Positions 23,961-50,916 of a stretch of DNA of 64,000 bases are shown here, piece by piece. Under the pieces are notes generated by a model. It did no database searches. It was not told the DNA's origin and saw nothing but the letters and a program-made list of their open reading frames with translations. The stretch's first letter is position 1. Each line of letters starts with the position of its first letter. Made by a program: the position numbers and the translations under genes. This DNA is from an uncultured Actinomycetes bacterium. Lineage in GTDB: Bacteria > Actinomycetota > Actinomycetes > Nanopelagicales > Nanopelagicaceae. The DNA lies in contig CAINLV010000111.1 of NCBI GenBank assembly GCA_903850565.1, positions 1 to 64,000 of the forward strand, read 5' to 3'.

Positions 23961-24881
23961 ATGATGATCCTTCACAAAACTTTGAGCATTCCTGGCCTTG
24001 GATCCGAAGGAATGGAAATTCCTTATTTCGAAATCGTCGGCGAAAAAGAAGGCCCCACCTTGACTCTGGTGGCCGGAGTCCACGGAGCCGAATACGCATC
24101 CATCGCTGCGGTTCGTGAATTTGCCACGAGCATTAATCCCGCCGAGGTTTCTGGAAAAATCGTGGCCGTCCCGATACTTAATTTAGCTTCCTTCTGGGCA
24201 CGGTCGGCATTCGTAGTACCTGTTGATGGCAAGAACTTGAACCGAACCTTTCCAGGTAATGCCGAAGGTTCTTTTACTGAGATTTTGGCGCATCATATTT
24301 TCCAAACTTTTATCAAGGGTTCTGATTTTCTAGTGGATTTACATGCTGGGGATATTCCAGAAGCTCTAGAACCTTTTGCAATGTTTGAAGAGTCGGCGGT
24401 AGAAGCAGGATCGTTGCTACTAGCTAAGGCATACGGGCTTAAGCATGTGGTTCGGCAAAGTTCGGCCGTCCGCACTGTTGCAGGAAGTACTTGTGCCGCC
24501 GCTGCGGATATTGGAATTCCAGCCATCATCGCTGAGTCAGGTCAGAATGGCATTCTGACGAGCGAGTCCATTGCTATCCATGTCGCAGGTCTTACCAACT
24601 TGGCCAGGTCAGTTGGCGTTTTGAGTGGCGAAGCAATAGTTCATTCCCAGGTTGTGGTTCACGAAGGTTGGAACTGGTTGCGAGCGCACAGCGCTGGTTG
24701 GTGGACTCCCCTGATTCAAACTGGCAATAGGGTTCAAGCCGGAGAAATCGTTGGCACGTTACACACCATCTTGGGAGAACTGATCGAAGAAATTAGAACT
24801 CCAGAAGCCGGAGTAGTTCTCTTTCAAACCAGCAGCCCAGCAGTATCCGTTGACGGAATTCTGATGGGCATTGCTCGCTAA
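23961..24881 (+). CDS. Succinylglutamate desuccinylase/aspartoacylase-family hydrolase
   Basis: A 306-residue zinc carboxypeptidase-fold amidohydrolase. Zinc ligands are recognised as GVHGAEYAS (H and E) and VDLHAGDIPE (H); the NRTFPG motif of the family follows as LNRTFPGN. The C-terminal part (residues ~225-306) is a beta-barrel with a biotinyl-like fold, common in this group. Substrates in the family are N-acyl amino acids; the exact one cannot be told. It ends with a four-base overlap with the convergent fusion gene. It neighbours a cluster of amidase, dipeptidases and methylaspartase, so it may also work on acylated or amidated amino acids. Confidence 0.85.
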   Translation: MMILHKTLSIPGLGSEGMEIPYFEIVGEKEGPTLTLVAGVHGAEYASIAAVREFATSINPAEVSGKIVAVPILNLASFWARSAFVVPVDGKNLNRTFPGNAEGSFTEILAHHIFQTFIKGSDFLVDLHAGDIPEALEPFAMFEESAVEAGSLLLAKAYGLKHVVRQSSAVRTVAGSTCAAAADIGIPAIIAESGQNGILTSESIAIHVAGLTNLARSVGVLSGEAIVHSQVVVHEGWNWLRAHSAGWWTPLIQTGNRVQAGEIVGTLHTILGELIEEIRTPEAGVVLFQTSSPAVSVDGILMGIAR

Positions 24882-27019
24882 TTTATTGCTGGTTTGCGAA
24901 TTTCGAAATTTATTATTTCTTCGATCTGCTTGGCAACTGACAAGAGTTCGTTGTCCGAACCCATTACAGTCGAGAGTTGGACTCCGATAGGAAGTCCGTT
25001 CTTGTCCCAACCACATGGAAGTGAAATCGCGGGATCCCCGGTTAAGTTAAATAGTCCGGTAAACATTCCCTCGGCCTGACCTTCTGGAGTATCAACTGGT
25101 GGTGTTGTGTCAGGTGCTACATAAGGAGCGGTCGGAGTAAGAAGGACATCAATTCCTGCATACATCTGTGCAGCCGCTGGAAGGAGTTCGGCTCGCTTGG
25201 CCATCGCTGCTTCATAAGCGGGACGGGAAATTCCTTCGGCACTTTGAAGCAGGCGAAGGGTTTCAGGGCCATAGTGGTGGGGATTGGCTGTGACCTGCTC
25301 ACCGTGAACTTGCCAAGCTTCCCAGAGTAAAATATCCCCGAAGGTGGCTTCTAACTCTGGAATAACCGAACCATTCACCTCAACGATGGAAGCACCAGCC
25401 GCCGCGAGCGCAGAAATCGTCTGGCGGATAGTAAAGGACACATCTGGTTCCATATATTCACTATCAAGTTGCGAAGTAATCACGCCGACTCGAAGTTTTC
25501 GTTCGGAAATCTTGGTGGTGGAGCTCGTTAAGGCGTCAAATACCTTAATAGTGGTGGCCATATCTTTGGCCAGTAACCCAACATGATCCAAGGAAGGTGA
25601 CAATGGGGTTACGCCTTCCAGCGGAATCGCACCGAAGCTCGGCTTGAAACCCACTACGGCGCAGTAATGAGCGGGGAGACGAATAGAACCGCCCGTATCC
25701 GTGCCCAGCGCCACATCGCAAGCATGAACGCCAACCAAGGCTGCCGAACCACCACTAGATCCTCCGGCGGTCTTTGTCGGATCAAACGGATTCATCGCTT
25801 CTGCAACTCCCGGATGGGTAGCGCCAGCGGCGTACTCCAATAAAGAGGTGGTGGCGAAAACATCTGCCCCTAATTCACGAAGGGTGGCGACTACGGGAGC
25901 ATCTGCGCTAGCTGGAGCCGATTTCATGGAATCGGGGTTGCCGTTGCCGCGAGGTTGCCCGGCTATATCGATAATGTCTTTAACGGCTATCTGGATGCCA
26001 TGGAGTGGTCCTTGTGGCGCTCGCAATGGAGCGGGAAGCAAGCTCACCAGTGCGTTGAGGGGTGTTCCTAGTCGTAGCGAGCGCTCGTATGTTGCCAGCA
26101 AATCCAAGTTAGCGACTTCGCAAGTGCGCTCGCCAGCCTCGATGGAATGGATAATTGCCCCCACATAATTGGTGAGCGGACCTTTTAGATCTCGAAGTAG
26201 ATCATCCACTTCCGTTTTTCGCTTTCGAATCATCAGGTCCCGATAAATCCCACTGTGGGTTTTGGCGCTCTTACGATTGAAAGTGACTAAGCGATCCAAG
26301 GATGGTTCTAGATCATTGGGGTCGAATCCATCAAAGGATTCAGGGCGAACTGGAGATTGAGCAAGAACTTCCTTGGCGATTGCCAGCATCAGTGGTCGAT
26401 ACTGAGGCGCCTCCAACGAGTCAGCAATAGATAAGTCTGAGGTGGCACCGGCGTACAACATGGCTCCGTAGGCTTCTTTGCCCCACAGGTAGCCCAAGAT
26501 ATTGGTTGTTGCTTCGGCGTATGGAAGCGCATCCACCAGTTCGGTAAGTCGCGGCGTAATTTGGCCGCCCACTAACTCGCCAACCCTAAAGGTTGCAATA
26601 TTTCCCTGCATAATTCTTCCCGGGGCGATGACATCGGCTCCGAAATTCACAAAACTGACCATCATATTTTCGGCGCCGACTACTTCGGCCAAAATGTCCG
26701 CGGTCAGGCCATTTTGAAAACTCACCAGATAGCCATCGGGATTCATTCGATTCCGAAGCAACTCCACAGCATCCTTCGTATGATGGCTTTTTACCGCAAT
26801 CGCGACTCGATCTAATTTTGCCGGAAGGTCCTTAGGGAGAACGGCTACTGCCGAAACGGTGAAGTTCTCGACGGGACCTTCAATCGTTATGCCATGTTGA
26901 TTAATAGCATCGACATGTGCGGGATCGACATCGCAAAAGAGAACCTCATGGCCGGACCGAATTAAATGAGCGCCTATTGTGCCGCCTATGGCGCCAGCCC
27001 CAATGATTGTTAAGTGCAT
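24878..27019 (-). CDS. Fusion: ketopantoate-reductase-like dehydrogenase + amidase
   Basis: A single 713-codon frame with two enzymes. Residues 1 to about 310 are an ApbA/PanE-type dehydrogenase: Rossmann loop TIIGAGAIGGTIGAHL, AVKSHHTKDAV, FQNGLTADILAEVVG and the lysine in LWGKEAYGAML (about K181). Residues ~325-713 are an amidase-signature hydrolase with the full Ser-cisSer-Lys triad: Lys in IAVKDIIDIAG (~K347), AGGSSGGSAALVG (~S421/S422) and nucleophile Ser in GTDTGGSIRLPA (~S445). GGGGAG precedes ATG 27019. No frameshift is visible, so this is a true fusion linking oxidoreduction of a 2-oxo acid with amide hydrolysis. It is divergent from methylaspartate ammonia-lyase over a 100-base gap. 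Confidence 0.9.
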   Translation of the reverse strand: MHLTIIGAGAIGGTIGAHLIRSGHEVLFCDVDPAHVDAINQHGITIEGPVENFTVSAVAVLPKDLPAKLDRVAIAVKSHHTKDAVELLRNRMNPDGYLVSFQNGLTADILAEVVGAENMMVSFVNFGADVIAPGRIMQGNIATFRVGELVGGQITPRLTELVDALPYAEATTNILGYLWGKEAYGAMLYAGATSDLSIADSLEAPQYRPLMLAIAKEVLAQSPVRPESFDGFDPNDLEPSLDRLVTFNRKSAKTHSGIYRDLMIRKRKTEVDDLLRDLKGPLTNYVGAIIHSIEAGERTCEVANLDLLATYERSLRLGTPLNALVSLLPAPLRAPQGPLHGIQIAVKDIIDIAGQPRGNGNPDSMKSAPASADAPVVATLRELGADVFATTSLLEYAAGATHPGVAEAMNPFDPTKTAGGSSGGSAALVGVHACDVALGTDTGGSIRLPAHYCAVVGFKPSFGAIPLEGVTPLSPSLDHVGLLAKDMATTIKVFDALTSSTTKISERKLRVGVITSQLDSEYMEPDVSFTIRQTISALAAAGASIVEVNGSVIPELEATFGDILLWEAWQVHGEQVTANPHHYGPETLRLLQSAEGISRPAYEAAMAKRAELLPAAAQMYAGIDVLLTPTAPYVAPDTTPPVDTPEGQAEGMFTGLFNLTGDPAISLPCGWDKNGLPIGVQLSTVMGSDNELLSVAKQIEEIINFEIRKPAIN

Positions 27020-27119
27020 TACGTCTCCCCTGCTCCGTAGATGTCAGAGCGTGACGATACCAACGATTACGATTGCGCACGTTATCGAAAATCGTGAAGA
27101 ATCTCCCGAGAGGTATTCC

Positions 27120-28397
27120 GTGATTATTACCAACCTACTGGCGGTACAAATTCGTTCCGGTTTTTTTGCCGATGACCAAGCGGCGATCTTGGCTGGTGCA
27201 GGTCACGATGGATTTGCATATATCGGCACTCCTATCACTCCTGGCTTTACATCGATCCGGCAGTCAGGCGAAGCCGTCTCCATCATGTTGGTTCTTCAGG
27301 ATGGACAGATTGGCTATGGAGATTGTGCAGCAGTGCAATATTCCGGGGCTGGCGGGCGAGATCCCGTTTTCAATGCAGCGCAAGCAGTTGAAGAAATTAA
27401 CCGACATTTGGTGCCATTTTTTGCCGGAAAAGATATTTCTAATTTTCGAACGGTAGCAAACGAGTTAGAAAACTTTTTAGTTGACGGTAAGCAATTGCAT
27501 TCTGCAATTCGATATGGAATCAGTCAGGCGCTATTGGATGCTGTGGCAAAATCTCGGGCCATCACTATGGCTGAAGTTATCCAAGAAGAGTATGAAACTG
27601 GAATAGAAATTACTGCCATTCCACTTTTCGTGCAATCAGGCGATAACCGCTACGACAACGTGGACAAGATGATCATGAAATCTGCGGATGTGCTTCCACA
27701 CGGACTGATAAATAATGTTGAAACCAAGTTGGGAAAGTCAGGTGAAATTTTTTCTGACTACATGACCTGGGTCCATGACCGAATCCTCGCGCTACGCGCT
27801 TCCCCTACCTATAACCCCACCCTGCATTTCGATATGTATGGGACCGTAGGCAGGGCATTTAATTCAGATGTCGAAAAGATCGCTGACTATTTAGTTTCGC
27901 TAGAAAAAGCAGCTGCGCCTTTTCAGTTGCGACTCGAGCATGTAATCGACGGCGGAAGTCGGGAAGGACAAATAGCGGTATCGGCCAAACTCCGAAGTGC
28001 ATTGCAAAACCGCAATTCTTCGGTGCAAATTGCCGTTGATGAATGGTGCAACACTTTAGAAGATGTGAAGCTTTTTCTTGCAGCCAGCGCTGCAGATGTT
28101 ATTCATGTAAAGACTCCCGACCTGGGAGGAATTGGTAACACGATAGAGGCATTGCTACTGGTGCGCCAAAGTGGTTTTGCTGCATATTGCGGTGGAACAT
28201 GTAATGAGACCGATATATCCGCAAAGGTTTCGGCTCACATCGCTATGGCTTGTGGGGCTATCCAAGTGCTGGCCAAACCTGGCATGGGCGTTGATGAGGG
28301 CATGATGATCGTGGGAAATGAAATGGCGAGAGTAATGGCATTGGTGCAGAATCGAAGCATTGTTAGCGATCTAGATAAAGGTGGACTATCTCAATGA
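27120..28397 (+). CDS. Methylaspartate ammonia-lyase
   Basis: A 425-residue enolase-superfamily enzyme that interconverts 3-methylaspartate and mesaconate plus ammonia. It follows the clostridial enzyme closely: GAGHDGFAY, CAAVQYSGAGGRDPVF, the His in LPHGLINNVETKLG, metal ligands in LHFDMYGT, QLRLEH and VDEWCNT, the catalytic Lys in VIHVKTPDLGGIGN, and AYCGGTCNETD plus LAKPGMGVDEGMMIV. GTG 27120 is chosen because AGAGG is six bases upstream and the family starts there; the open frame extends to 26979 without family similarity. It overlaps the M20 gene by ATGA. Glutamate mutase, the usual supplier of methylaspartate, is not in the window. Confidence 0.93.
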   Translation: MIITNLLAVQIRSGFFADDQAAILAGAGHDGFAYIGTPITPGFTSIRQSGEAVSIMLVLQDGQIGYGDCAAVQYSGAGGRDPVFNAAQAVEEINRHLVPFFAGKDISNFRTVANELENFLVDGKQLHSAIRYGISQALLDAVAKSRAITMAEVIQEEYETGIEITAIPLFVQSGDNRYDNVDKMIMKSADVLPHGLINNVETKLGKSGEIFSDYMTWVHDRILALRASPTYNPTLHFDMYGTVGRAFNSDVEKIADYLVSLEKAAAPFQLRLEHVIDGGSREGQIAVSAKLRSALQNRNSSVQIAVDEWCNTLEDVKLFLAASAADVIHVKTPDLGGIGNTIEALLLVRQSGFAAYCGGTCNETDISAKVSAHIAMACGAIQVLAKPGMGVDEGMMIVGNEMARVMALVQNRSIVSDLDKGGLSQ

Positions 28398-29776
28398 GCA
28401 ACTCTCTGAAATTTGATGACACGGATGACAACTATTTGAAGGAGTTGGCTCCGTACATTTCTATCCCTAGTGTCAGCAGAGATGCCACCTCCGAAACCAT
28501 GTCACAGGCAGCCAATTGGCTAGCGAATCAACTCGCTTTTGCCAATGGCCGGGTCGTGGAGACCCAGGGCCATCCTGTGGTTCGAGGAGAATGGCTGCAA
28601 GCCGAAGGCGCCCCCACAATTTTGGTTTATGGTCACTACGATGTTCAGCCAACGGGAGATTTAGCCGAATGGAAAACCCCGCCATTTGAAATGGTTGTTG
28701 ATGGCGATGTAATTCGCGGGCGCGGAGTTACCGACGACAAAGGACCGGTCTATATCGTTCTCAAAGTTGCCCAAGCATTTATTGCTCAAGAGCACGCACT
28801 TCCCCTTAATATAAAATTTCTCTTTGAAGGCGAAGAAGAAATAGGTAGTCCCCATCTACCTCCCTACCTAAGAGCTCATGCCGAAGAATTGGCTGCCGAT
28901 TTAGTGATCTCTGCAGACGGTGCCATGTGGAGACCTGGCGAGCCATCTCTGTCGATCGCTTCCAAAGGCTTAGTCACTTTGAATCTTGAAGTTACTGGAG
29001 CAAATGACGATCTTCATTCCGGCCGATTTGGCGGCACTGTTGCAAATTCACTCCACGTCTTAACGCAAATTTTGGCCGGGCTTCACACCCCCGATGGCCG
29101 AATCGCAGTACCGGGCTTCTACGACGGAATCCCAGAACTAACTCCACAACGCAGAGCTGATATCGCTGCCGTCCCATTTGATGATCATCAATATATGGCC
29201 GGATTGGGTGTCGATGAACTTTTCGGAGAAGTTGGATTTAGTACCTTGGAAAGATTATGGGAACGACCAACTTTGGAAATCAATGGAGTTACATCAGGTG
29301 GGAAATACACTGTTATTCCCCATATCGCTACCGGGCATATTTCGTGCCGCTTAGTTCCCGGACAAGACCCACAGCATGTGTTGGCCGCCATTACTGCCCA
29401 TGTTGAAAGTCAGAAATATGCCGGCGTGAAGGTCGCAGTTCATCCTGATCTGGGCGGAGTACCTGCTTACACAATTCCCGCTGATCATCCCGCAATTAAG
29501 GCGGCTAGTGCCGCTCTGGATCATGTTTATCCTGGCGAAGGCGTGCTCCTTGCAGTCATTGGCGGAACTCTTCCTGCTACCGCACTTTTCGAAGATGTAT
29601 TGGGCGTGAAAACTCTCTTCTTCTCCTTCTCTACCGCTGATGAGAAATTGCATGCCCCTAATGAATTCATGCGAATCAAGCGCTTTCGTGAAGGCATGAA
29701 GGCGTGGGAAAAATTGTGGAGATTGCTCGCAGCAGGCGAACATCGCTTGCAACCCGTAACCAGAAAGCAGGGATGA
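28394..29776 (+). CDS. M20-family metallo-dipeptidase
   Basis: A 460-residue dizinc peptidase. Ligands: VYGHYDVQPTG (H), GRGVTDDKGPVY (bridging D) and FEGEEEIGSPHL (catalytic E and ligand E), ISADG (D), and a C-terminal His in DEKLHAPNE. The dimerisation/lid domain spans residues ~190-330 and carries NDDLHSGRFGG. The DDKGP variant places it with broad dipeptidases (carnosinase-like) that cut dipeptides and N-acyl amino acids. ATG overlaps the methylaspartase stop (ATGA), so the two are translationally coupled; the M19 gene follows directly. Confidence 0.92.
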   Translation: MSNSLKFDDTDDNYLKELAPYISIPSVSRDATSETMSQAANWLANQLAFANGRVVETQGHPVVRGEWLQAEGAPTILVYGHYDVQPTGDLAEWKTPPFEMVVDGDVIRGRGVTDDKGPVYIVLKVAQAFIAQEHALPLNIKFLFEGEEEIGSPHLPPYLRAHAEELAADLVISADGAMWRPGEPSLSIASKGLVTLNLEVTGANDDLHSGRFGGTVANSLHVLTQILAGLHTPDGRIAVPGFYDGIPELTPQRRADIAAVPFDDHQYMAGLGVDELFGEVGFSTLERLWERPTLEINGVTSGGKYTVIPHIATGHISCRLVPGQDPQHVLAAITAHVESQKYAGVKVAVHPDLGGVPAYTIPADHPAIKAASAALDHVYPGEGVLLAVIGGTLPATALFEDVLGVKTLFFSFSTADEKLHAPNEFMRIKRFREGMKAWEKLWRLLAAGEHRLQPVTRKQG

Positions 29777-29778
29777 CC

Positions 29779-30966
29779 ATGACCGATTCAAAATACTCTT
29801 CTTATGACTATTTAGAGCACGGTGTTGATCTGCCGATCTTCGAACTTGCCCCTGAATTTGGCAAATATCCTGCTTATGTAAGCGGAGTTACTCCTGAAGA
29901 AAATGCACGAGCCAAAAAATTGGTTGAGGAAAATATCATCATCAGTTTGCACGACCATCCCGTTAGATTTCCAGATGACATGAGGCAAACACCGGAATAC
30001 AACCAAACCGGCCGACAACATACTGCCTTCAACGGACTCGCAGCATCAGGGATGACTATCGTTTTCGACAACATGATGGATGGAACCGCCTGCGTAACGG
30101 GAAATGCACCGTGGCGTTGGATGGATATCATCACCGATTTAGGAATGCGCCAGGCCGATATTGCCCACCAAGACGAGGTAGTTGTCGTCAGAACTATTGA
30201 AGACATTTATTTAGCCAAAGAAAATGGCAAAGTGGGTTTGATCTTTGGCTTGGAAGCAGCAACGCCGATCGAAAATGAAATTGATCGATTAGATGTTCTT
30301 TACGGACTTGGAATTCGACAAATGGGTATCGCCTATTCAGACTCAAATGTCTTGGGCAGCGGACTCAATGAAGATGTAGATGGCGGACTGACTGCCTTTG
30401 GAAAACGATGCGTTACCCGAATGAATCAATTAGGTATTGCTATTGATATCTCTCACTCTTCTGACCAAACTGGAATAGATACATGCATAGCAAGCAGCGA
30501 GCCGGTCTTCATGACACACGCTGGTGCCAAAGCAGTGTGGAACACCAGGAGGATGAAGTCCGATGACTGCCTCAAGGCTGTGGCGAGCACTGGTGGAGTC
30601 ATTGGTATTTCAGCGGCCCCTCACACAACTTTGTCCCACGAACATCCGCAGCACAATATTTTGTCCATCATGGATCACTTTAAATATTGCGTTGATCTAG
30701 TAGGCATTGAGCATGTCGCCTTCGGCCCAGACACTCTTTACGGTGACCACGTCGGATTACATACGGTCTTCGCAGGTTTGCTTAAGGTGGGCGCTATGGG
30801 CGGGCCATCATTTGAAAAAGTGAAGTACGTTGATGGTTTAGAAAATCCCACCGAAAACTTCTGGAATATCGCAGATTGGCTAGTTCAGAACGGATACAGC
30901 GATGAGGAAATCGTGGCTGTTATGGGTGGAAATATCCTGCGAGCCCTGAAAGAAATCTGGGCTTAA
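29779..30966 (+). CDS. Membrane dipeptidase family (M19, renal dipeptidase-like)
   Basis: A 395-residue metallo-amidohydrolase of the M19 family, which cleaves dipeptides including those with a D-residue at the C-terminus. Metal ligands are seen as ISLHDHPVRFP, the Glu in FGLEAATP, DISHSSDQT and MTHAGAKAVWN, and the late AFGPDTLYGD motif. No signal peptide, so cytoplasmic. ATG 29779 is preferred as AGGG lies about six bases upstream; ATG 29773 would overlap the preceding stop (ATGA). First motif LHDHP differs from the usual DGHND, which may indicate a different specificity. Third gene of an operon with methylaspartase and M20. Confidence 0.88.
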   Translation: MTDSKYSSYDYLEHGVDLPIFELAPEFGKYPAYVSGVTPEENARAKKLVEENIIISLHDHPVRFPDDMRQTPEYNQTGRQHTAFNGLAASGMTIVFDNMMDGTACVTGNAPWRWMDIITDLGMRQADIAHQDEVVVVRTIEDIYLAKENGKVGLIFGLEAATPIENEIDRLDVLYGLGIRQMGIAYSDSNVLGSGLNEDVDGGLTAFGKRCVTRMNQLGIAIDISHSSDQTGIDTCIASSEPVFMTHAGAKAVWNTRRMKSDDCLKAVASTGGVIGISAAPHTTLSHEHPQHNILSIMDHFKYCVDLVGIEHVAFGPDTLYGDHVGLHTVFAGLLKVGAMGGPSFEKVKYVDGLENPTENFWNIADWLVQNGYSDEEIVAVMGGNILRALKEIWA

Positions 30967-32102
30967 TCGAGCATTTCTCGATGGGGAGCGGCCTTGCGAA
31001 TCTGAGGCCGTTCCCCATCAAAGCGAAGTGGTAATCCTGGAAGTACTTTGACCGCTGTGTCCTCATCCGGATAAGACAACATAACTTCGATAGCAGCGCC
31101 TTGTTTATCGGACAAAAGCGCTTCAGGGAGAAGAACCTCTTCAGCGGCAACTCCCGCAGTCAAAAGCTCTTTCGACCAAACAGCGGCATCTTTGGTCTGG
31201 AGGGCAATTTCAATTTCCCCTTTCAACACTATGGCGTTGCTGACTCGGTCGGTATTAGTAATGAATCGCAGGTCACTTACCAAATCGCTTCGCCCAATAA
31301 CAGCACAGAGTTTTCCGAAGATATTGTCATTTCCTACGCCAATGCAGAGCGTGCCATTTTTTGCAGAGAAAATTCCGTAAGGCGAAAAAGCGGGATGACC
31401 ACTCCCAGATCGAACCGAGGGAAGTTGTGTCAATTCATATGCCGAAACATGGTAGCTAACCCAGAGCGCACCAGTTTCAAAAAGGGATGTTTCAACTAGA
31501 GATCCCATTCCAGTACGGTTGCGTTTTACCAACGCTGCCAGTATTCCTAGAGCCAACCAAGTTCCTGCACCAACATCTAGGACTGAAACACCGGTACGAA
31601 CCGGTTCACCCTCTGGTTCGCCGGTTATATGCATAATTCCCGTTCGAGCCTGAACCGTTGCGTCATAGCCAGGTGATTGCGCATCCGGACCTTGCGAACC
31701 GTAGGAAGAAAGGTTGCCAATAATAAGGCGTGGGCGAGACTTCATTAACTCCGAAGGAAGCAATCCCATTTCTTGTAGTTTGCCCGGTAAAAAATTACTT
31801 ATGAAAACATCGGTCTCATCTAGTAATTTATTTAATTGGTTTTGACCTTCAGCGGATTTAAGATCCAAAGTAACGACTTCCTTGTTGCGATTTACAACAT
31901 GAAAATATGCAGAACGATCGCCATCGGTTGGAGCCATAAAACGTGCTGGATCCCCAGACGGAGATTCAATTTTTATTACCTCTGCACCTAAATCGGCAAG
32001 AACGGTGCCCCCAAATGGGCCAGCGATGTTTGAAGTTGCATCCAGTACTTTGATGCCAAAAAGTGGAAGTGAGGCGAGTGAATTTTCTGCTGCGGTACTC
32101 AT
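30963..32102 (-). CDS. Family III CoA-transferase (CaiB/BaiF)
   Basis: A 379-residue CoA-transferase that moves CoA between carboxylic acids. The N-terminus (IKVLDATSNIAGPFGGTVLA, LGAEVIKIESPSGDP) and the catalytic Asp in QSPGYDATVQARTG are clear, as is NLSSYGSQGP before it. The natural acid is not evident; mesaconate is an attractive candidate because methylaspartase lies in the same cluster, and family III members include mesaconyl-CoA and formyl-CoA transferases. It is convergent with the M19 gene (four-base overlap), thus not in the same transcript. Confidence 0.85.
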   Translation of the reverse strand: MSTAAENSLASLPLFGIKVLDATSNIAGPFGGTVLADLGAEVIKIESPSGDPARFMAPTDGDRSAYFHVVNRNKEVVTLDLKSAEGQNQLNKLLDETDVFISNFLPGKLQEMGLLPSELMKSRPRLIIGNLSSYGSQGPDAQSPGYDATVQARTGIMHITGEPEGEPVRTGVSVLDVGAGTWLALGILAALVKRNRTGMGSLVETSLFETGALWVSYHVSAYELTQLPSVRSGSGHPAFSPYGIFSAKNGTLCIGVGNDNIFGKLCAVIGRSDLVSDLRFITNTDRVSNAIVLKGEIEIALQTKDAAVWSKELLTAGVAAEEVLLPEALLSDKQGAAIEVMLSYPDEDTAVKVLPGLPLRFDGERPQIRKAAPHREMLD

Positions 32103-32123: not shown

Positions 32124-32654
32124 CTACTGTCGGGGCAAAGCAGCAATGATCTTTTCCGCATCCAACTGTGGATCCGACGGATCAATTATCAATCTGGCTA
32201 CTTCTCGATACCTGGGGTCGCGCCGTTCATAGCGCTCCTTAATGATTTCCATGGGGTTTTCAGAAAATGCTTGGCGGCCAACTCCCGAAGAACCTGCACG
32301 AGATTTCAACTTCTCCAAGGGAACATGGAGGTAAATAGTGAATTGGTCTTTGAGGGCTTCCAGAAGTGGAGGGTCATCTCCAACCGAAGCGGCAGCCCCT
32401 GCAATTAGCGGTGCTGGTCGCCTCAGCACATCTGCTAAATAATCGTGCTCTAATTTATGAAGAGTAGGAACATCCAGTGCCCCCAATTCCTTCATCGACA
32501 TATGAGCCATCTTGCTCATCTCATAATCATTGTCTATATAGGGCCAACCCAATAACTCCGAGAGTCGATTGCCGATGGTGGATTTACCAGCACCCATCGC
32601 ACCAATTAAAACAATGCGGCGGCTTGGCAGCTCAAGGAAGTCACTGGAAGTCAA
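32124..32654 (-). CDS. Shikimate-kinase-like small P-loop kinase
   Basis: A 176-residue kinase of the shikimate/gluconate kinase superfamily: P-loop LIGAMGAGKSTIG, the acidic motif WPYIDNDYEM, GRQAF in the lid with RxGR-type Arg, and RYERRDPRYREVA at the C-terminus as in AroK. TTG 32654 is chosen because no ATG fits and AAAGG lies six bases before it; it overlaps the preceding dehydrogenase by 14 bases. AroK function is possible, but co-translation with an idonate-type dehydrogenase makes a sugar-acid kinase an equally good reading. Confidence 0.7.
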   Translation of the reverse strand: MTSSDFLELPSRRIVLIGAMGAGKSTIGNRLSELLGWPYIDNDYEMSKMAHMSMKELGALDVPTLHKLEHDYLADVLRRPAPLIAGAAASVGDDPPLLEALKDQFTIYLHVPLEKLKSRAGSSGVGRQAFSENPMEIIKERYERRDPRYREVARLIIDPSDPQLDAEKIIAALPRQ

Positions 32655-33660
32655 TGAGAACCTTTCCAGATATTTGAGAATTCTTTGCAATTTCAAAGGC
32701 TTCAACCGCGTCATCGGGTTTCAAAATATGAGTAATACATAGCGAGAATTTGTCAGATTGCAATAACAACTTCACGGCATCTTCGACTTCATTATTGAAA
32801 CGAAAGGCCCCTTTCAGGGTGATTTCCTTAGAGACCAATGCGGCAATAGCAATAGGTTGTGGACCAGCGCCCAATATCCCAACCTGAATAACCGTTCCAG
32901 CTCTGCGAACTGCAACAAAAGCTGAACTTACCGCGATGGGTGAAGCCGAACATTCAAAAACAACATCGTAATAATTTTCTGGCAGAGCTTCACTGGTGAT
33001 CTGAATTGTCTTGTCAGCTCCCATTGATTTGGCACGCTCTAGCGGGCCAGTTAAGACATCTGTTGAAGTTACTTCAGCGGCACCGTTGTAGTGAGCCAAG
33101 GCCGCTACCAAAAGCCCAATTGGACCAGAGCCCGAAACTAATACTCTCTTGCCGGCAAGATCCCCATAAACATTTGCCGCATGAACTGCAACACCCAATG
33201 GTTCAGCAAGGGCGGCATCCTTTAATGAGAGCCCAGCAGGCAATGCCCGCACCATAAATTTCTTAACTAAGAGGTAATCCGACATTGCCCCTTGAGTATG
33301 CGGCCATGTTGATGCACTTCCTAAATAGCTTCCGCCAGGCCACAAATGACGTTTATCTTCGATGCCTGGTTCCGAAATTCCAAATCTTCCAGGATGCACG
33401 GTAACCGCGGTTCCTGAGGCAAATTCGCCACTGGGATCTAGATCGATCGTTCCAGAAAGTTCGTGTCCAGGGATCAGTGGTTCCTTCACAACAAAGGCGC
33501 CATTTGCACCATCAAAGTAGTAATGAAGATCCGATCCGCAGACACCTACATAGGCAATGCGAATTCGAACTTCGTCCGCCTGAGGTTCTGGAACTGGGAG
33601 CGATTGAATGCTTGCATCTAACTTGCCGTCAATCACAAAAGCTCGCATTGTTGCACTCAT
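32641..33660 (-). CDS. Zinc-dependent L-idonate/polyol-type dehydrogenase
   Basis: A 339-residue medium-chain dehydrogenase. Catalytic zinc site VGVCGSDLHYYFDGAN with PGHELSGTI, NAD loop VLVSGSGPIGLLVAAL and the motif YLGSASTWPHTQGAMSDYL are close to L-idonate 5-dehydrogenase (IdnD), which oxidises L-idonate to 5-ketogluconate. The structural Cys cluster of classic ADHs appears absent (HLWPGG where HLCPGG is common in IdnD). It shares a 50-base divergent promoter region with the mannitol/fructuronate-type dehydrogenase and is followed by a small kinase, together a sugar-acid pathway. Confidence 0.82.
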   Translation of the reverse strand: MSATMRAFVIDGKLDASIQSLPVPEPQADEVRIRIAYVGVCGSDLHYYFDGANGAFVVKEPLIPGHELSGTIDLDPSGEFASGTAVTVHPGRFGISEPGIEDKRHLWPGGSYLGSASTWPHTQGAMSDYLLVKKFMVRALPAGLSLKDAALAEPLGVAVHAANVYGDLAGKRVLVSGSGPIGLLVAALAHYNGAAEVTSTDVLTGPLERAKSMGADKTIQITSEALPENYYDVVFECSASPIAVSSAFVAVRRAGTVIQVGILGAGPQPIAIAALVSKEITLKGAFRFNNEVEDAVKLLLQSDKFSLCITHILKPDDAVEAFEIAKNSQISGKVLIDFQ

Positions 33661-33698
33661 TATCTAGTTGCTCCATGACTATGAATTTAGGTTCTAAC

Positions 33699-33704
33699 TA
33701 TACT
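33699..33704 (+). promoter_or_regulatory. -10 element for a leaderless transcript
   Basis: TATACT at 33699-33704 stands six bases before ATG 33711. Transcription should start at or within a base of the ATG, giving a leaderless mRNA for the dehydrogenase. A weak -35 may lie around 33676-33682. Confidence 0.5.
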
Positions 33705-33710
33705 TTGCCC

Positions 33711-35216
33711 ATGACAAATTCTTCAGCCACAAATTTGCCACTCTTGAATCTAAAGACTGCGCCGCAAGAGGCACTTCTACTGCAGCAGACACCAGCGACT
33801 GGAATTGTCCACATTGGACTGGGAAATTTTCACCGTGCTCACCTTGCCGTCTATACCGCACTGGCGGTTCAGGCCAATGGCGGTGACTGGGGAATTTTTG
33901 CCTACTCCATGAGAAGCACCGCCACTCCTGACTCCATGACCGCGCAAGATAATTTGTATTCAGTTGTCACGATCTCTCCAGATTCGGACCAAATTATCAT
34001 TCCGGCGATTCACACTAAGGTTCTTGGCGGCCCCGAAAGAGTTGGCGAAGTACTTCGAGAAATCGCCCAAAGTGCCACGAAAATAATCACTTTGACGGTC
34101 ACCGAGGCTGGATATTCAATTTCACAGGAGACCAATGGGCTGGACCTGGGCTCTCCTGACATTCAATGGGATCTCACACATCCAGCCACTCCTAAGACTG
34201 CGATCGGAATTATCGTTCGCGGGCTACAACTTCGGGCACAGTCACATAAATCCCCGATAACTGTTTTGAGTTGCGACAACTTAAGTTCAAATGGAAATCG
34301 AACTGCTCAACTGGTTGGACAGTTTGTAGCGGCGCTACCTGAATTTGAGTCCCAAGAACTCGACGCTTACATTTCAACTTTGGTCACTTTTCCCAATTCA
34401 ATGGTGGATCGAATTGTTCCTGGCACACAACCTCGACATATTGAAATGGTGGCGAACCGCCTAGGTGTTCACGATCAATCCCCTGTTCCAGCAGAGGCAT
34501 TTACCATGTGGGTGCTAGAAGATAATTTCGCCGCGGGTCGACCTGATTGGGAAATCAATGGCGCCATCTTTACTAAAGATGTCGAAGGTTACGAAGTAAT
34601 GAAATTGCGCTTGCTCAATGGCGCTCACTCACTTCTGTCTTACCTGGGCGCCCTAGCCGGAGAAGAAACAATTCCTGGAGCTAGATTCCTTCCCTTCGTA
34701 GAACAGGCCCTTCAAACCATCCTCTACAAGGAGTTCCTTCCAACTTTTTCTTTGCCAATAGGAGTTGAGGCTGACAAATATATTGCGCAACTATTTTCAC
34801 GATGGTCCAATACCGTCCTCGGTGATTTAACGAGTCGGGTTGGTTCGGATGGATCTACAAAGTTACCGCAGCGAATCACCCAGCCGGTTCTCTTCCACGC
34901 GTTGAACCAAGAAATACCTCAATATATTGCCCTCACCATTGCTGCCTGGCTGGCGTGCATAGCGCCTCTGGCGGGATTTGAGCCGGGTAAATATGCAGAT
35001 GCGATGAAAGACCCAGCTAAGGAAAAATTGGTGGGCTACGCGGCTTCTTCCACTTCACCCTCGGATTTTGTCCGTTGGGTATTTACAGGTGCTGGAATAT
35101 TTGCACCGGAATTAGCAACTCTTTCCGAGTTTCACAATCAAATTTCTATCTATTTGGATTTGATAATGCGCGAAGGTATTGAAGCTGCCTCAAAATATGC
35201 CCATTCGTTAAGTTAA
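33711..35216 (+). CDS. Mannitol dehydrogenase family (mannitol/fructuronate/tagaturonate oxidoreductase)
   Basis: A 501-residue polyol dehydrogenase of the long-chain mannitol family. Family signatures: IVHIGLGNFHRAHLAVY near residue 30, VTEAGYS, LSCDNLSSNGNRT, FPNSMVDRIVP, and the catalytic lysine in YEVMKLRLLNGAHSLLSYLG. Choice among mannitol 2-dehydrogenase, fructuronate reductase and similar enzymes cannot be made by eye. ATG 33711 is picked because the fold starts soon after and a -10 box fits; the frame is open upstream to 33477 inside the divergent gene. A strong terminator follows at 35231. Confidence 0.88.
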   Translation: MTNSSATNLPLLNLKTAPQEALLLQQTPATGIVHIGLGNFHRAHLAVYTALAVQANGGDWGIFAYSMRSTATPDSMTAQDNLYSVVTISPDSDQIIIPAIHTKVLGGPERVGEVLREIAQSATKIITLTVTEAGYSISQETNGLDLGSPDIQWDLTHPATPKTAIGIIVRGLQLRAQSHKSPITVLSCDNLSSNGNRTAQLVGQFVAALPEFESQELDAYISTLVTFPNSMVDRIVPGTQPRHIEMVANRLGVHDQSPVPAEAFTMWVLEDNFAAGRPDWEINGAIFTKDVEGYEVMKLRLLNGAHSLLSYLGALAGEETIPGARFLPFVEQALQTILYKEFLPTFSLPIGVEADKYIAQLFSRWSNTVLGDLTSRVGSDGSTKLPQRITQPVLFHALNQEIPQYIALTIAAWLACIAPLAGFEPGKYADAMKDPAKEKLVGYAASSTSPSDFVRWVFTGAGIFAPELATLSEFHNQISIYLDLIMREGIEAASKYAHSLS

Positions 35217-35230
35217 ACCAGAAGCACCCA

Positions 35231-35267
35231 AACGAAAATGGCCGAGATTGCTCTCGGCCATTTCGTT
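35231..35267. terminator. Bidirectional intrinsic terminator
   Basis: The arm AACGAAAATGGCCGAGA (35231-35247) pairs with TCTCGGCCATTTCGTT (35252-35267), with a four-base loop and a single bulged base. It lies between two convergent genes ending at 35216 and 35284. The A-rich and T-rich flanks of the stem allow it to act in both directions. Confidence 0.85.
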
Positions 35268-35283
35268 GTGAATTAACTAAGGC

Positions 35284-36420
35284 TTACTTGCCCCAGATCT
35301 TCTTGTAAGCAGCACGGTATCCATTTTGTGGATCCCATACGGTGCTAGTTCCTGCGTTTGCCTTGGTTACAAGGTGAACAACTGGAACGTATCCGCTTGC
35401 CTTTTGACCAGCGAAGGCACGGTTGAATTCATCAACAATCTGCCATCCCTGCATTGTCAAAGGTTCTGGAACTGTTACAGACTGGAAATCTCCAGAGTTG
35501 ATGCGACCGTACTCATCAGGTGAACCGTCTCCGGCACCAACGTTATGAGGGAAGCCAGCGCCGTCTTTGCCAGCTGCACGAAGTGCTGCTGCCATTGGGG
35601 TGATGTACAAGCCACCATTGATGGAAATGGAGTGAGTCCATGAATCGCCATATTGAGCGACAAGAGCTGCAGTCTTAGATGCAACCAATGTTGAGATGCT
35701 GTCGCCGATTGGAATATTTGCATATTCCAAGAGCTTCAAGGATGCACAGGTTTCAACTTCTGCCTTGATCTCTTGAGATTTTCCTTCAGCGAAAGGAATT
35801 GAAGAGTCGGTGAAGATAACGACTCCGCCAACGCCCTTTGAATCAGCAATTACCCAGTCAGCAGAGATCTTTGAGACATCTGCACGAAGAGTCGTGACGT
35901 TGCTAAACAAACCAAGTGAAGGTTGTGGACCAGAAGTGGCTGCAGCGTGCCAACCAATTACTGGAATCTTTGCAGCCTTTGCTTTAGCAATTGCATCCTT
36001 CACAGTTGCTGGATCAAAGCCACCGATAATAATTCCGCTGGCCTTCAAGGTGACGGCCTGCTGTGTGGCTGATGCCATTCCAGCGGCAGTTCCTTGACCA
36101 TCAAGTACGCGAACCTTCCAGCCCATTGCTGCAGCGGCTTCTTTCACGCCTGCTGCGGCACCGGCAACTCCACCATTTTGCATGGTCTGAGCTACGAAAA
36201 TCAGGGTCTTGCCCTTTGTGGCCTTAGGTCCGGTCTTTGGACCATCCCATGGAGCTTTTACTGCTGTGGCCTTTGCTACGGCAGCGGTTGCCTTAGCTAG
36301 CGCTGCTGGGCAGCCTTCTGCCGCAACTGCGGATGAAGTCATTGACAATCCGACCAATGGACCGGCGATCAAAGTTGTTGCTGCTACGAACGCACCGACA
36401 CGCTTTTTCATATTCTTCAA
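35284..36420 (-). CDS. Sugar ABC transporter substrate-binding protein (ribose type)
   Basis: A 378-residue exported binding protein of the Peripla_BP_4 type. The signal peptide is MKNMKKRVGAFVAATTLIAG then PLVGLSMTSSAVAA. The mature part begins with an Ala/Lys-rich helix with a Cys, followed by LIFVAQTMQNGGVAGAAAGV, ASGIIIGGFDPATVKDAI and AKAAKIPVIGWHAA, the two-lobed sugar-binding layout. Last gene of a three-gene importer after ATPase and permease, with the bidirectional terminator just behind it. The ligand may be a pentose, polyol or sugar acid, given the dehydrogenases next to it. Confidence 0.9.
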   Translation of the reverse strand: MKNMKKRVGAFVAATTLIAGPLVGLSMTSSAVAAEGCPAALAKATAAVAKATAVKAPWDGPKTGPKATKGKTLIFVAQTMQNGGVAGAAAGVKEAAAAMGWKVRVLDGQGTAAGMASATQQAVTLKASGIIIGGFDPATVKDAIAKAKAAKIPVIGWHAAATSGPQPSLGLFSNVTTLRADVSKISADWVIADSKGVGGVVIFTDSSIPFAEGKSQEIKAEVETCASLKLLEYANIPIGDSISTLVASKTAALVAQYGDSWTHSISINGGLYITPMAAALRAAGKDGAGFPHNVGAGDGSPDEYGRINSGDFQSVTVPEPLTMQGWQIVDEFNRAFAGQKASGYVPVVHLVTKANAGTSTVWDPQNGYRAAYKKIWGK

Positions 36421-36468
36421 TGTATTTCCTTTCCTTGCATCTATTCGAGGGGTCTGCTGGTGAAACGG

Positions 36469-37491
36469 TTACTGGCTTTCCATGCTCCGCCGTGAAGCTT
36501 CGGCACCGGATTTCAAACGACGTCTTGCTGAATATCCAGCAAGACCAACGGCTGCCAACAATGTCAGTCCGTTGAAGAGTGGTGTCGCCCAGAAATCAGC
36601 ACCCAACTGCTGAATTCCTGCCACTCCGATTGCAAGGATCGCAACCGCGACGAGCGTTCCAAGCGCATTCGCTCTTCCGAGACGAATCGTTGTCGACCCC
36701 AATAAGGCGCCAACAAATGCAGGAAGTAGATACTCGCTACCAATACTTGGGTTACCAACTTGTTGTTGAGCGGCGAGCAAACATCCTGCAAAACCAGTGA
36801 TTGCCGATGAGGCAACGAAAGAAAGAATTACATATCGACTCTTTGGAATTCCGATCAATTCAGCGGCACGTGGATTTGAACCGATCACATAAAGTCCACG
36901 GCCAGCTGGAAGAAATTCTAGAACTACCACCAAAATGAATACCAGGGCGATTATGTAATACGCGCCAATCGGAAGGCCAAGGAAGTGACCATTCATGAGG
37001 TTTGTAAATCCTTTAGGCAATCCTTGAACCGGAGGGACCAATCGACCACCATGAGTTATCCAGCCACTTAGCGCGTAAAGCACGCTTCCTGTTCCAAGTG
37101 TCGCGATAAAGGAATCGATCTGAGCAAATTCCACAAGTAAACCATTAATTAGCCCCACCAATGAACATCCAACGATGGACAGAACGCAGATCAAAATCCA
37201 GGAGATGTGGCTATTGATCAAGAACCACATCACGATCACGTGTGTTAATCCCAAGGCATAGCCCATAGATAAATCGAATTTGGCCGTAACGATAGGGATC
37301 ATCGCTCCAAGCGCCAAGAGTGCCGGGATGGACTGGTTAGTCAAAATTGCTTGCAGGTTGGATGAAGTGGGATATGTATCTGGCAAGAGAAGTGAAAAAA
37401 GAATGAAAATCGCAACTGCCAAAATGGGTAACCCATAGGTTCCCAATCGCAGCGCGATAGATGATCGATTCTTTGCCATTTTAGGATGCAC
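36469..37491 (-). CDS. Sugar ABC transporter permease (RbsC type)
   Basis: A 340-residue polytopic permease of the BPD_transp_2 family with eight to ten hydrophobic segments. ALGAMIPIVTAKFDLSMGY (family I/VDLSVG motif), LINGLLVEFAQIDSFIATLG and GSNPRAAELIGIPKSRY are characteristic. It would form the membrane channel as a homodimer with the double ATPase. The gene overlaps the end of the ATPase gene by 11 bases and is followed 48 bases later by the binding protein gene. Confidence 0.92.
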   Translation of the reverse strand: MHPKMAKNRSSIALRLGTYGLPILAVAIFILFSLLLPDTYPTSSNLQAILTNQSIPALLALGAMIPIVTAKFDLSMGYALGLTHVIVMWFLINSHISWILICVLSIVGCSLVGLINGLLVEFAQIDSFIATLGTGSVLYALSGWITHGGRLVPPVQGLPKGFTNLMNGHFLGLPIGAYYIIALVFILVVVLEFLPAGRGLYVIGSNPRAAELIGIPKSRYVILSFVASSAITGFAGCLLAAQQQVGNPSIGSEYLLPAFVGALLGSTTIRLGRANALGTLVAVAILAIGVAGIQQLGADFWATPLFNGLTLLAAVGLAGYSARRRLKSGAEASRRSMESQ

Positions 37492-38965
37492 TCACATTCG
37501 CTCTTGATGCGTAGGTAACTAGATTTTCAACTGATAGTTGCGATCTTTCCAATTCCGCCACAATTTCGCCATCGGAAAAAACCAAGGCACGATGTGCCAT
37601 TAATGCAACTTCCTCAAAGTCGGTAGAGACCAGCAATACCGCCAATCGCGCTTCCGTGGCTTCAGCGATGAGTCGATAGATATCCCCCTTAGCCCCGACA
37701 TCGACTCCTGCTGTTGGCTCCTCTAAGACGATTACCGATCGGGGAAGACTTAACCAGCGAGCCAAAATAACTTTCTGCTGATTGCCCCCCGAAAGAGTTG
37801 CGATCGCAACCTCTTCATTCGGAGTCTTGACATTGAATCGGTTGGTTAATTCCGCTGCTTCAGTGGCTTCTTTGCGATGGCTCAGAAGCGTAAAAACCCC
37901 AGCGCCACGAACTTTTAGATTGGGAAACATATTTTCTCGGATAGATAAATGCATCGCCAAACCTTCTTCGGCGCGAGAACTAGTGATGAGAGAAATGCCG
38001 GCTCGAACCACTTTCACTAAACCGCCTTTAAGCGCAGCGCCTTTCAGAGTTATGGTGCCACCAAAACGAGGTAGAGCTCCCGCAATTATGCGACCCACTT
38101 CTCGTTGACCGGCACCATTAAGACCAATCAACCCAAGAACTTCACCTTCGCGCAAAATAAAACTGGCACTTCTAACACCTTCGCCACTTAAGTTGCTGAC
38201 ATTGAGGACCTCTGCGCCGTAATTGGCATCGCCTAAATGAAAGAGTTCGGTAGATCTTCCAACGATTCCGCGAACTAAGGACTCGGGAGAAAATGTTGAA
38301 ATCAATCCTTCTTCAACTAGCTTGCCATCTCGCAGAACTACTACGCGATCGGCCACTTTAAAGATCTCATCCAATCGATGTGAAACATAAACAATGGCAA
38401 CGCCTTGCGTTTGCAAATTTCGAAGTACCTGAAAAAGATTTTCACAATCACTTGCGTGCAAACTGGCAGTTGGTTCATCTAAAACAAGTACATCGGATTT
38501 TGCATAAAGCGCGCGAGCAATTGCGACAAGTGAGCGATCTGCTTTCGATAATGTTGAAATAGTTTGGTTGACATCGATATGCGGTGCAACATTCTTCAAC
38601 GCATCCGTTGCCATTTTTCGAACGCCGGCCCAATCAATAATCCCTGCTTTGCGAGGATAACCAGAACCAAGAGCGACGGATTCACCAACTGTCATCCATT
38701 CCACAAGACCAAGATCTTGGTGAATAAATGCGAAGCGAATTGAATTGAGGTTGCCGCCATCTTGCGAGGTTATCGATCCGGAATCTGGCGAATAAATTCC
38801 GGCAAGGATTTTTATCACCGTTGATTTGCCAGCACCGTTAGCGCCAAGCAGAGCCAATACCTCGCCGGCATTAATATCGAAACTCACCGCATCCAAAGCT
38901 TGCGTCGCGCCAAACCTTTTCGACAAGGCTTTAATCGAGACGAGGGCGGAGTTTCTGATTGGCAC
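37481..38965 (-). CDS. Sugar ABC transporter double ATPase (RbsA type)
   Basis: A 494-residue protein with two ABC domains. The N-terminal half has Walker A LGANGAGKSTVIK and VLDEPTASLH; its signature region is degenerate (STLSKADRSLVAIARAL in place of LSGG). The C-terminal half has the typical degenerate Walker A LIGLNGAGQREVGR but an intact signature LSGGNQQKVILARWL and VLEEPTAGVDVG. This asymmetry is normal for ribose/galactose-type importers. GTG at 38965 starts the gene. It is separated from the upstream iclR gene by a terminator hairpin, so a separate promoter is expected in 38966-39024 or read-through occurs. Confidence 0.93.
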   Translation of the reverse strand: MPIRNSALVSIKALSKRFGATQALDAVSFDINAGEVLALLGANGAGKSTVIKILAGIYSPDSGSITSQDGGNLNSIRFAFIHQDLGLVEWMTVGESVALGSGYPRKAGIIDWAGVRKMATDALKNVAPHIDVNQTISTLSKADRSLVAIARALYAKSDVLVLDEPTASLHASDCENLFQVLRNLQTQGVAIVYVSHRLDEIFKVADRVVVLRDGKLVEEGLISTFSPESLVRGIVGRSTELFHLGDANYGAEVLNVSNLSGEGVRSASFILREGEVLGLIGLNGAGQREVGRIIAGALPRFGGTITLKGAALKGGLVKVVRAGISLITSSRAEEGLAMHLSIRENMFPNLKVRGAGVFTLLSHRKEATEAAELTNRFNVKTPNEEVAIATLSGGNQQKVILARWLSLPRSVIVLEEPTAGVDVGAKGDIYRLIAEATEARLAVLLVSTDFEEVALMAHRALVFSDGEIVAELERSQLSVENLVTYASRANVSAS

Positions 38966-38981
38966 AGGCTGAAGTTAGACT

Positions 38982-39019
38982 AAAAAAGCCAAAATGTTAT
39001 GCAGCGTCCAGCATTTTGG
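38982..39019 (-). terminator. Intrinsic terminator after the iclR gene
   Basis: On the minus strand CCAAAATG (39019-39012) and CATTTTGG (38996-38989) form an 8-bp stem with a 15-base loop, followed by CTTTTTT (complement of 38982-38988). It lies six bases after the iclR stop and just before the sugar ATPase start. The loop is long, so an operator role is an alternative. Confidence 0.6.
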
Positions 39020-39024
39020 ACACT

Positions 39025-39801
39025 TTATTTTCCCATGGAGAGCGGGTTGGACAAACCTTTGGCGAGGGCATGAAGGTCATTGAGCAAGGCCTGGCGAAAT
39101 TCTGGGGTCAATCTCCCCGTTAAAACCGTGGAAGAGACCGCAACCGAGGAGGTATCCCCACGGAATCCCGAAACTGCTAGCCCAAAACACGTTACTCCGG
39201 TCGTTGCTTCTTCGTCATCGATTGCATATCCGCGAGCACGTACCTTCTCCAAGTCAGATAACAATTCGGTAACGGTCTTAAGTGATTTGGCGGTCAACGG
39301 TACGAATGCATGTGGCTTGCCTTTATATCTTTCCTGAACCTCTTTAGGTGTGAGTTGGGCAAGCAGAGCTTTTCCGGTGGCGGTGCAGGCTGCCGGAAAT
39401 CGATCTCCGATATTTGCCGTCAATCGAATTTGCTGGCGCCCTTCATACTTTCCTAAATACAAAACGTCAGTGCCATCCAAGATTGCGATACGAGATGACT
39501 CTCGAGACATTATCGGCAGACTTGCACAAAGATCATAATATTCGCGCAACGCATCGACGCTGGAGAGGTAGTAACCACCAAGTTCAACGAGTTTTCGACC
39601 CAGTGCGTAACCGTTCTCACGTCTAACTAACATTCCACACTCTTCGAGTTCGATGCAGATATTGGCCGTTGATGATTTGGGATAACCCAGTTTTCGGGAA
39701 ATTTCATTGGTTCCTATATTTGAATGAGACTGAGCCACCAAATCTAAAATGGCGGCCGCGCGTGCAACTGCGGGAACCAACGGGGTGCGCTCATCAAACA
39801 T
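39025..39801 (-). CDS. IclR-family transcriptional regulator
   Basis: A 258-residue regulator: N-terminal winged HTH (residues ~10-65, with NEISRKLGYPKSSTANICIE as recognition helix region) and C-terminal effector domain (about 80-250, with FPAACTATGKALLAQL and ARGYAIDDEEATTGVTCFGL). IclR proteins sense small acids and control catabolic genes. It lies between the sugar ABC genes and the divergent cyclase/dehydrogenase genes, and a 23-bp dyad at 39841-39863 in the divergent gap is a good operator. Likely local regulator of one or both sets. Confidence 0.92.
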   Translation of the reverse strand: MFDERTPLVPAVARAAAILDLVAQSHSNIGTNEISRKLGYPKSSTANICIELEECGMLVRRENGYALGRKLVELGGYYLSSVDALREYYDLCASLPIMSRESSRIAILDGTDVLYLGKYEGRQQIRLTANIGDRFPAACTATGKALLAQLTPKEVQERYKGKPHAFVPLTAKSLKTVTELLSDLEKVRARGYAIDDEEATTGVTCFGLAVSGFRGDTSSVAVSSTVLTGRLTPEFRQALLNDLHALAKGLSNPLSMGK

Positions 39802-39840
39802 CTATTTACCTGTCCAACCCTCTAGACGCCACTCAGCATC

Positions 39841-39863
39841 CTGATAGTGTCGGACAGTATCAG
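39841..39863. promoter_or_regulatory. 23-bp near-perfect dyad, candidate IclR operator
   Basis: CTGATAGTGTCGGACAGTATCAG (given here as arms CTGATA 39841-39846 and TATCAG 39858-39863, with inner TGTC-G-GACA) pairs in 10 of 11 positions about a central G. It lies midway between the iclR start at 39801 and the cyclase start at 39908. Confidence 0.65.
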
Positions 39864-39907
39864 CGAGACACCATCTCAACAAGACGCACTTACGGAGAGA
39901 ACGAGAC

Positions 39908-43561: not shown

Positions 43562-43573
43562 TTTTGATTCTCT

Positions 43574-45351: not shown

Positions 45352-45380
45352 TACTCCTTTGTTGATGGTTTAAGTAAAAA

Positions 45381-49079: not shown

Positions 49080-49144
49080 CCGGTTACTACCTGCTCTCTT
49101 GTAGGAATTATTGCTGAGATTTCTATATTACTGGATAGAACTAC

Positions 49145-50689: not shown

Positions 50690-50715
50690 GTAAATGCACT
50701 CCTAATCAACGAAGG

Positions 50716-50735
50716 ATATTCAGGGAACTGAATAT
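50716..50735. promoter_or_regulatory. Perfect 8+4+8 dyad upstream of the peptide operon
   Basis: ATATTCAG (50716-50723), GGAA, CTGAATAT (50728-50735). It begins 26 bases upstream of the start codon of the binding protein at 50689, overlapping where the leader or promoter must be. A dimeric repressor site is the simplest reading; a small hairpin in the mRNA leader is the alternative. The remaining 180 bases to the next gene show nothing else that I can name. Confidence 0.5.
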
Positions 50736-50916
50736 GAGGGCTGTTCATGTCAGGTCGGCTTTAATACCGAGGGAGCGACACGGAAAGGAGACTAAAGGAA
50801 AATTGTCTGCTTTGCACGTGGAAACGATTTCAGCCATGTAAACCTTTTTTAAAAAGACATACCGCCAGAACAATCTGCCTGCAAATTTGGAAAGATGTGA
50901 CGATGCTTCAAAGTGG

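Follow-up and report, generated by a model that had tools for sequence, protein, structure and literature searches.

Gene organisation at the locus

The stretch of DNA analysed here, called the window in the following, comprises 64,000 nucleotides. On its minus strand a single open frame of 713 codons (24878–27019) starts with ATG and runs without interruption through a reductase half (residues 1 to about 298, about 26126–27019) and an amidase half (about residues 301 to 713, about 24881–26119). The uninterrupted fused frame claimed by the sequence-only reading is thereby confirmed. Downstream of the fusion lies the gene of an AstE/AspA-type (DoeB-like) deacylase on the plus strand (23961–24881). 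It is convergent with the fusion, the 3' ends overlapping by 4 bases, and in 5 of 22 loci it was seen close to the fusion. At the other end a methylaspartate ammonia-lyase (MAL) is encoded on the plus strand (26979–28397; TIGR01502 548 bits, cut-off 286). In 26979–27126 the first start that was assigned mechanically to the MAL frame overlaps that of the fusion, whereas homology starts near 27126, which leaves a short divergent intergenic region between the two genes. The plus strand further carries an M20 dipeptidase-type peptidase (28394–29776) and an M19 peptidase of the renal/membrane dipeptidase family (29704–30966, true start probably downstream of 29704), and the minus strand a CaiB family III CoA-transferase, possibly a mesaconate CoA-transferase (30963–32102).

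A second block, entirely on the minus strand, comprises the short-chain dehydrogenase SDR1 (42758–43561), an M55 D-aminopeptidase of the DppA family (43574–44518), an Asparaginase_2 Ntn-hydrolase (44395–45351), an Opp/Nik-type ABC importer (45381–49079; ATPases 45381–46352 and 46349–47482, permeases 47341–48141 and 48141–49079) with its family 5 solute-binding protein (49145–50689), a second short-chain dehydrogenase, SDR2 (50917–51606), which directly adjoins the fusion in several relatives, and an alpha/beta hydrolase resembling proline iminopeptidases and esterases (51603–52442). The closest PDB match of the Asparaginase_2 protein is glycosylasparaginase, followed by isoaspartyl peptidase; enzymes of these kinds hydrolyse amide bonds formed with the beta-carboxyl group of aspartate. 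A CitE/HpcH-type lyase gene (56756–57667, minus strand) is only 32% identical to the cluster lyase of the relatives, so its membership in the cluster is uncertain. Both the CaiB and the CitE-like proteins score under the cut-offs of mesaconate- or citramalyl-specific models.

The cluster genes of the window thus fall into two blocks, 23961–32102 and 42758–52442. The region between them (32124–42752) is an unrelated block of sugar/polyol type with a zinc dehydrogenase (idonate dehydrogenase-like), a mannitol dehydrogenase, parts of a sugar-type ABC importer and a kinase of the shikimate kinase family.

Domain structure of the fusion protein

Two Pfam domains were recognised in the 713 amino acid protein, ApbA (PF02558) at residues 4–149 with 93.8 bits (cut-off 22.2) and Amidase (PF01425) at residues 334–693 with 242.4 bits (cut-off 27). 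The NCBIfam model for PanE, TIGR00745, reached 114.2 bits and stayed below its cut-off of 141.35, and the several NCBIfam amidase models that matched were all well under theirs. Among proteins in the PDB the sequence relatives of the N-terminal half are the 2-dehydropantoate 2-reductases 5ayv, 5hws and 2ew2, and those of the C-terminal half are amidase 2dc0 and malonamidase E2. When fused and amidase-only proteins are aligned, the latter begin with a helix that falls on residues of about 303–320 of the fusion; the amidase half therefore starts near residue 301–310, practically without a linker. The AlphaFold2 model (mean pLDDT 80, pTM 0.56) contains both folds. Its weak regions, residues 254–268 and 296–330, mean that the placement of the domains relative to each other is not reliable.

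The fusion is conserved as a single frame

A scan of genome contigs yielded 22 loci with 60–71% identity over essentially the full length, and searches for relatives added more. Both halves lie in one frame of 702–777 amino acids from stop to stop in 24 of the 25 other distinct loci (about 60–72% identity), assemblies of isolates included. The same domain order thus recurs in other genomes, and the relatives carry the fusion and not separate adjacent genes. The sole split case is locus L055, which has the two parts in different frames. There the frame breaks at a residue of about 278, within the reductase half and away from the domain junction, on a contig of a metagenome-assembled genome (MAG) with, according to its name, about 5x coverage.

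In the amidase tree, the fused proteins and two amidase-only proteins (from genomes G022 and G400) form one fully supported clade (100/100), which is compatible with the amidase-only state being ancestral as well as with a loss of the reductase. The reductase halves group together (90/86), apart from their unfused relatives. Counts of the label "fused" in the trees are not to be over-read, as a score threshold left out the likewise fused L050 and L052, and L095 duplicates the window's own sequence. The data fit a history in which the fusion arose once within Actinomycetota and then spread to lineages of lakes, soil and peat. Two loci that might have indicated a spread across phyla were not accepted as such. 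The contig of L050 (JAJAYQ010000246.1), titled Spirochaetaceae and the best candidate from outside the actinobacteria, appears to be identical to contig C245 of genome G131, with which it agrees in length and match position and which is assigned to the window's own class; its NCBI name looks wrong. L055, labelled Acidobacteria, stands alone among the 296 genomes of its phylum group, which leaves its label or an acquisition uncertain.

A non-exhaustive literature search found no description of a pairing of reductase and amidase or of the gene cluster around it, in agreement with the sequence-only reading, which knew of no enzyme of this kind. As far as that search went, both domain families are known, and their pairing and the cluster are undescribed.

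The reductase half

In 23 aligned fusions N103, K181 and E270 of the reductase half are invariant, as is most of the nucleotide motif. N103 and E270 correspond to the Asn98-type asparagine and the Glu256-type glutamate in E. coli numbering. The half shares with the ApbA/PanE superfamily (PF02558; for example the ketopantoate reductase 5ayv) the Rossmann domain, the positions of the catalytic Lys, Asn and Glu and, in the model, the helical C-terminal part. The substrate contacts differ. The asparagines found in 5ayv at four and eight residues after the catalytic lysine, which contact the substrate in ketopantoate reductases (EC 1.1.1.169; N180 and N184 in E. coli), are replaced by G185 (invariant) and Y189 (nearly invariant), with the lysine itself kept. 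Unlike ketopantoate reductases, the fusion also has no recognised ApbA_C domain (no Pfam match at E 0.001) and has an amidase attached.

In the model the reductase half ends in a helical C-terminal part. This part can be aligned with unfused relatives, among them one with an ApbA_C match, but has a deletion of 9 residues compared with them. The claim of a complete PanE module therefore holds for the overall fold and to a lesser degree for the sequence family.

The closest unfused relatives from the genome search are 41–45% identical and likewise lack Asn at the substrate positions. They lie in a conserved operon (L078, L079, L080 and L081) with a PuuE-like enzyme of the polysaccharide deacetylase family, an MFS transporter, an SDR and an M20 hydrolase. 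From the missing asparagines and these operons we conclude that the reductase of the fusion belongs to a distinct branch of the superfamily that recurs alongside an SDR and an amide hydrolase. The operon of L078 additionally has an AbgT transporter. The four operons represent another amide pathway, which may be undescribed as well.

Taken together, the reductase half is best explained as an NAD(P)-dependent 2-oxo/2-hydroxy acid oxidoreductase of the PanE superfamily, probably with a specificity other than pantoate.

The amidase half

The triad of Lys, cis-Ser and Ser (K347/S421/S445) is invariant in the 23 aligned fusions, and the GGSS motif is present. With the triad and the residues of the reductase half conserved, the claims of an amidase signature module and of intact key residues in both halves stand. 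The spacing of 24 between the two serines equals that of S131 and S155 in malonamidase E2, which is also the best PDB match found with Foldseek (E 8e-26, TMt 0.79). Within the amidase signature family (PF01425) the closest folds, malonamidase E2 (1obl) and amidase 2dc0, have the same triad, the GGSS motif and the short architecture of about 410 amino acids, at 28–29% identity over the fold match. In both of them, unlike in the fusion, the N-terminus of the amidase does not run straight out of a reductase. A further difference to malonamidase E2 concerns Arg158, its contact to the malonate carboxylate: its position (S445+3) is occupied by L448 in the fusion, with R447 adjoining.

The C-terminal half is thus best explained as a probable Ser-cisSer-Lys amidase, and the whole gene as probably encoding a genuine bifunctional enzyme of two domains with the catalytic sets of both intact.

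The gene cluster in relatives

In L085 nearly the same set of genes as in the window lies on one contig in the order CaiB CoA-transferase | CitE/HpcH-type lyase, M19, M20, MAL, SDR1, M55, Asparaginase_2, two ATPases, two permeases, solute-binding protein, SDR2 | fusion | AstE-like | alpha/beta hydrolase. The cluster is uninterrupted in L085 and L087. Many of the 22 loci are on short contigs; 17 of them have M55 and Asparaginase_2, 16 have the ATPases, 14 the binding protein and 13 MAL. The neighbourhood is kept across freshwater actinobacteria, Streptosporangiaceae and Acidimicrobiaceae, and in the relatives a citramalyl-CoA-lyase-like enzyme is part of the cluster. In the versions from Acidimicrobiaceae (L045, L047 and L052) the importer has both ATPases in one frame, and L045 has a DUF885 protein next to the alpha/beta hydrolase.

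Two genomes of the window's own family, G022 and G400, keep the importer, Asparaginase_2, M55, SDR1, SDR2 and the alpha/beta hydrolase at about 73–90% identity and have an amidase-only gene in the slot of the fusion. Neither MAL nor a reductase of the fusion type was found in these two genomes. A simple fission of the fusion was rejected as their origin, since the amidase is only about 41% identical as against 73–90% for its neighbours; the tree accommodates an ancestral as well as a reduced state. In a separate lineage (G264 and G186; loci L104 and L105) an S9 peptidase, MAL, CaiB, a stand-alone amidase and an Opp importer follow one another, and a CitE-like gene is close by. This row also has a PucR-type regulator.

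MAL also occurs without the fusion in L106 and L107 (genomes G329 and G388), near SDRs and an amidohydrolase or nitrilase-family enzyme; the surroundings of MAL in L107 also include CoA-transferases and a distant PuuE-like protein. This arrangement may represent another way into methylaspartate.

Association of the fusion with methylaspartate ammonia-lyase

The MAL neighbour is, judged by its sequence, a true member of its family: it aligns with the clostridial enzyme 1kcz at 522 bits, including the LPH and KTPDLGG segments (regions of the catalytic His194 and Lys331). Across 395 sampled genomes of the class, 11 of them with MAL, the gene is present in 7 of 7 genomes with the fusion versus 4 of the 388 others (Fisher p 1.2e-12, not corrected for phylogeny). 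MAL was also present in 9 of 9 fusion genomes of a second set and in 16 of 18 of a third, the sets overlapping; in the remaining two genomes of the third set, both MAGs, it was not found.

For the glutamate mutase E subunit (PF06368) there was no match in the window's own genome, which is 94.7% complete; glutamate is therefore probably not the source of methylaspartate. MAL usually goes together with glutamate mutase, but is here tied to a peptide importer. According to the arrangements in G022/G400 and G264/G186 the amidase goes with the importer and the peptidases, and the reductase half with MAL. This pairing is a correlation from few independent events, as it rests on two closely related genomes and on co-occurrence, both of which are affected by kinship.

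A possible pathway and alternative explanations

We consider it fairly probable that the fusion is a catabolic enzyme with two activities and belongs to an undescribed pathway, in which a peptide or amide is imported and an amino acid of the 3-methylaspartate type is released from it. The sequences show the fusion and its conservation, the intact catalytic residues, the conserved cluster and the co-occurrence with MAL; from the genes present we infer the substrate, the reactions and the order in which they run, and the direction that the redox step takes. The Opp-type transporter would take up a small peptide or amide. Asparaginase_2, M55, M20, M19, the AstE-like protein, the alpha/beta hydrolase and the amidase half would dismantle the imported compound, and the reductase half and the two SDRs would carry out redox steps modifying it, so that the fusion would supply one hydrolytic and one redox step. 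The hydrolases would set free the 3-methylaspartate-type amino acid, MAL would convert it to mesaconate, and the CaiB CoA-transferase and the citramalyl-CoA-lyase-like enzyme would feed mesaconate into central metabolism.

We considered several alternatives. The two halves could each serve a step of their own within one pathway and be fused for co-expression only, with no two-step conversion of one molecule. The clusters of G022/G400 and G264/G186, where the amidase has no linked reductase, are in line with this, and so is the poorly predicted interdomain placement (pTM 0.56). Nevertheless the fusion has been retained through wide divergence, and the unfused reductase relatives adjoin an SDR and an M20 amide hydrolase, which suggests a recurrent partnership of reductase and hydrolase. 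We regard this alternative as unlikely, though it is the one to be taken most seriously. A more improbable one is that the reductase half is structural or regulatory (oligomerisation or redox sensing) and that the amidase does the chemistry of the pathway. The amidase-only counterpart in the same slot of G022 and G400 and the diverged, less confidently modelled C-terminal part of the reductase would suit such a role, but none of the 23 sequences departs from the catalytic Lys, Asn and Glu, and conservation is higher in the reductase half than in the amidase half.

The sequence-only reading had suggested a pantoyl- or pantothenamide-like substrate. The amidase half would then split a pantoyl amide and the reductase half interconvert pantoate and ketopantoate, for which membership in the ApbA/PanE superfamily and the intact N103, K181 and E270 could be cited. 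This substrate was rejected as very improbable: G185 and Y189 replace the substrate-contact asparagines, TIGR00745 remains under its cut-off (114 versus 141), ApbA_C is not recognised, and the conserved cluster has genes for peptide import and hydrolysis and for methylaspartate–mesaconate catabolism and none for pantothenate. Finally, a sequencing or assembly error that merged two genes, for which L055 with its two frames might be quoted, is ruled out for practical purposes by the one frame in 24 other loci, isolate assemblies among them; the break in L055, which comes from a low-coverage MAG, falls within the reductase half and misses the junction.

Relation to known systems and significance

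Against the proposed pathway it counts that Opp-type importers and peptidases are common and can adjoin unrelated genes, as do the scores of the CaiB and CitE-like proteins and the two fusion genomes in which MAL was not found. In two of the closest known systems an enzyme of the Asparaginase_2 or M55 type likewise adjoins an Opp/Dpp-type importer: the isoaspartyl peptidase encoded beside the glutathione importer in iaaA-gsiABCD of E. coli, and DppA in the dpp operon of Bacillus. Unlike the cluster described here, both are without MAL, CoA-transferase, SDRs and reductase–amidase fusion. A second comparison is offered by two methylaspartate routes, the pathway used in glutamate fermentation and the cycle of haloarchaea (PMC5592240 for the cycle), which have MAL, a CaiB-type CoA-transferase and a CitE-type lyase in common with the cluster. 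The differences are the lack of a match for the glutamate mutase E subunit in the window's own genome and the presence of the peptide importer, the many peptidases and amidases and the fusion in the cluster.

Microcystin and nodularin, which contain iso-linked D-erythro-3-methylaspartate, were considered as the imported compound. They are attractive for freshwater strains, yet the cluster occurs equally in soil Streptosporangiaceae and peat Acidimicrobiaceae, and the literature search found no paper connecting MAL with microcystin; we keep them as a lead only.

More specifically, but only tentatively, the pathway proposed above could be one widespread in actinobacteria for an unusual imported peptide or amide that holds a beta-linked unit of the 3-methylaspartate type and a 2-oxo/2-hydroxy acyl amide, the fusion carrying out consecutive redox and hydrolysis steps on the acyl amide. 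Two steps on one molecule were also suggested by the sequence-only reading. If this were true, the fusion would be the diagnostic enzyme of that pathway. The cluster points to an environmental compound with 3-methylaspartate or a close analogue that is used by lake, peat and soil actinobacteria, and the identity of this imported compound would account for the fusion and the cluster together.
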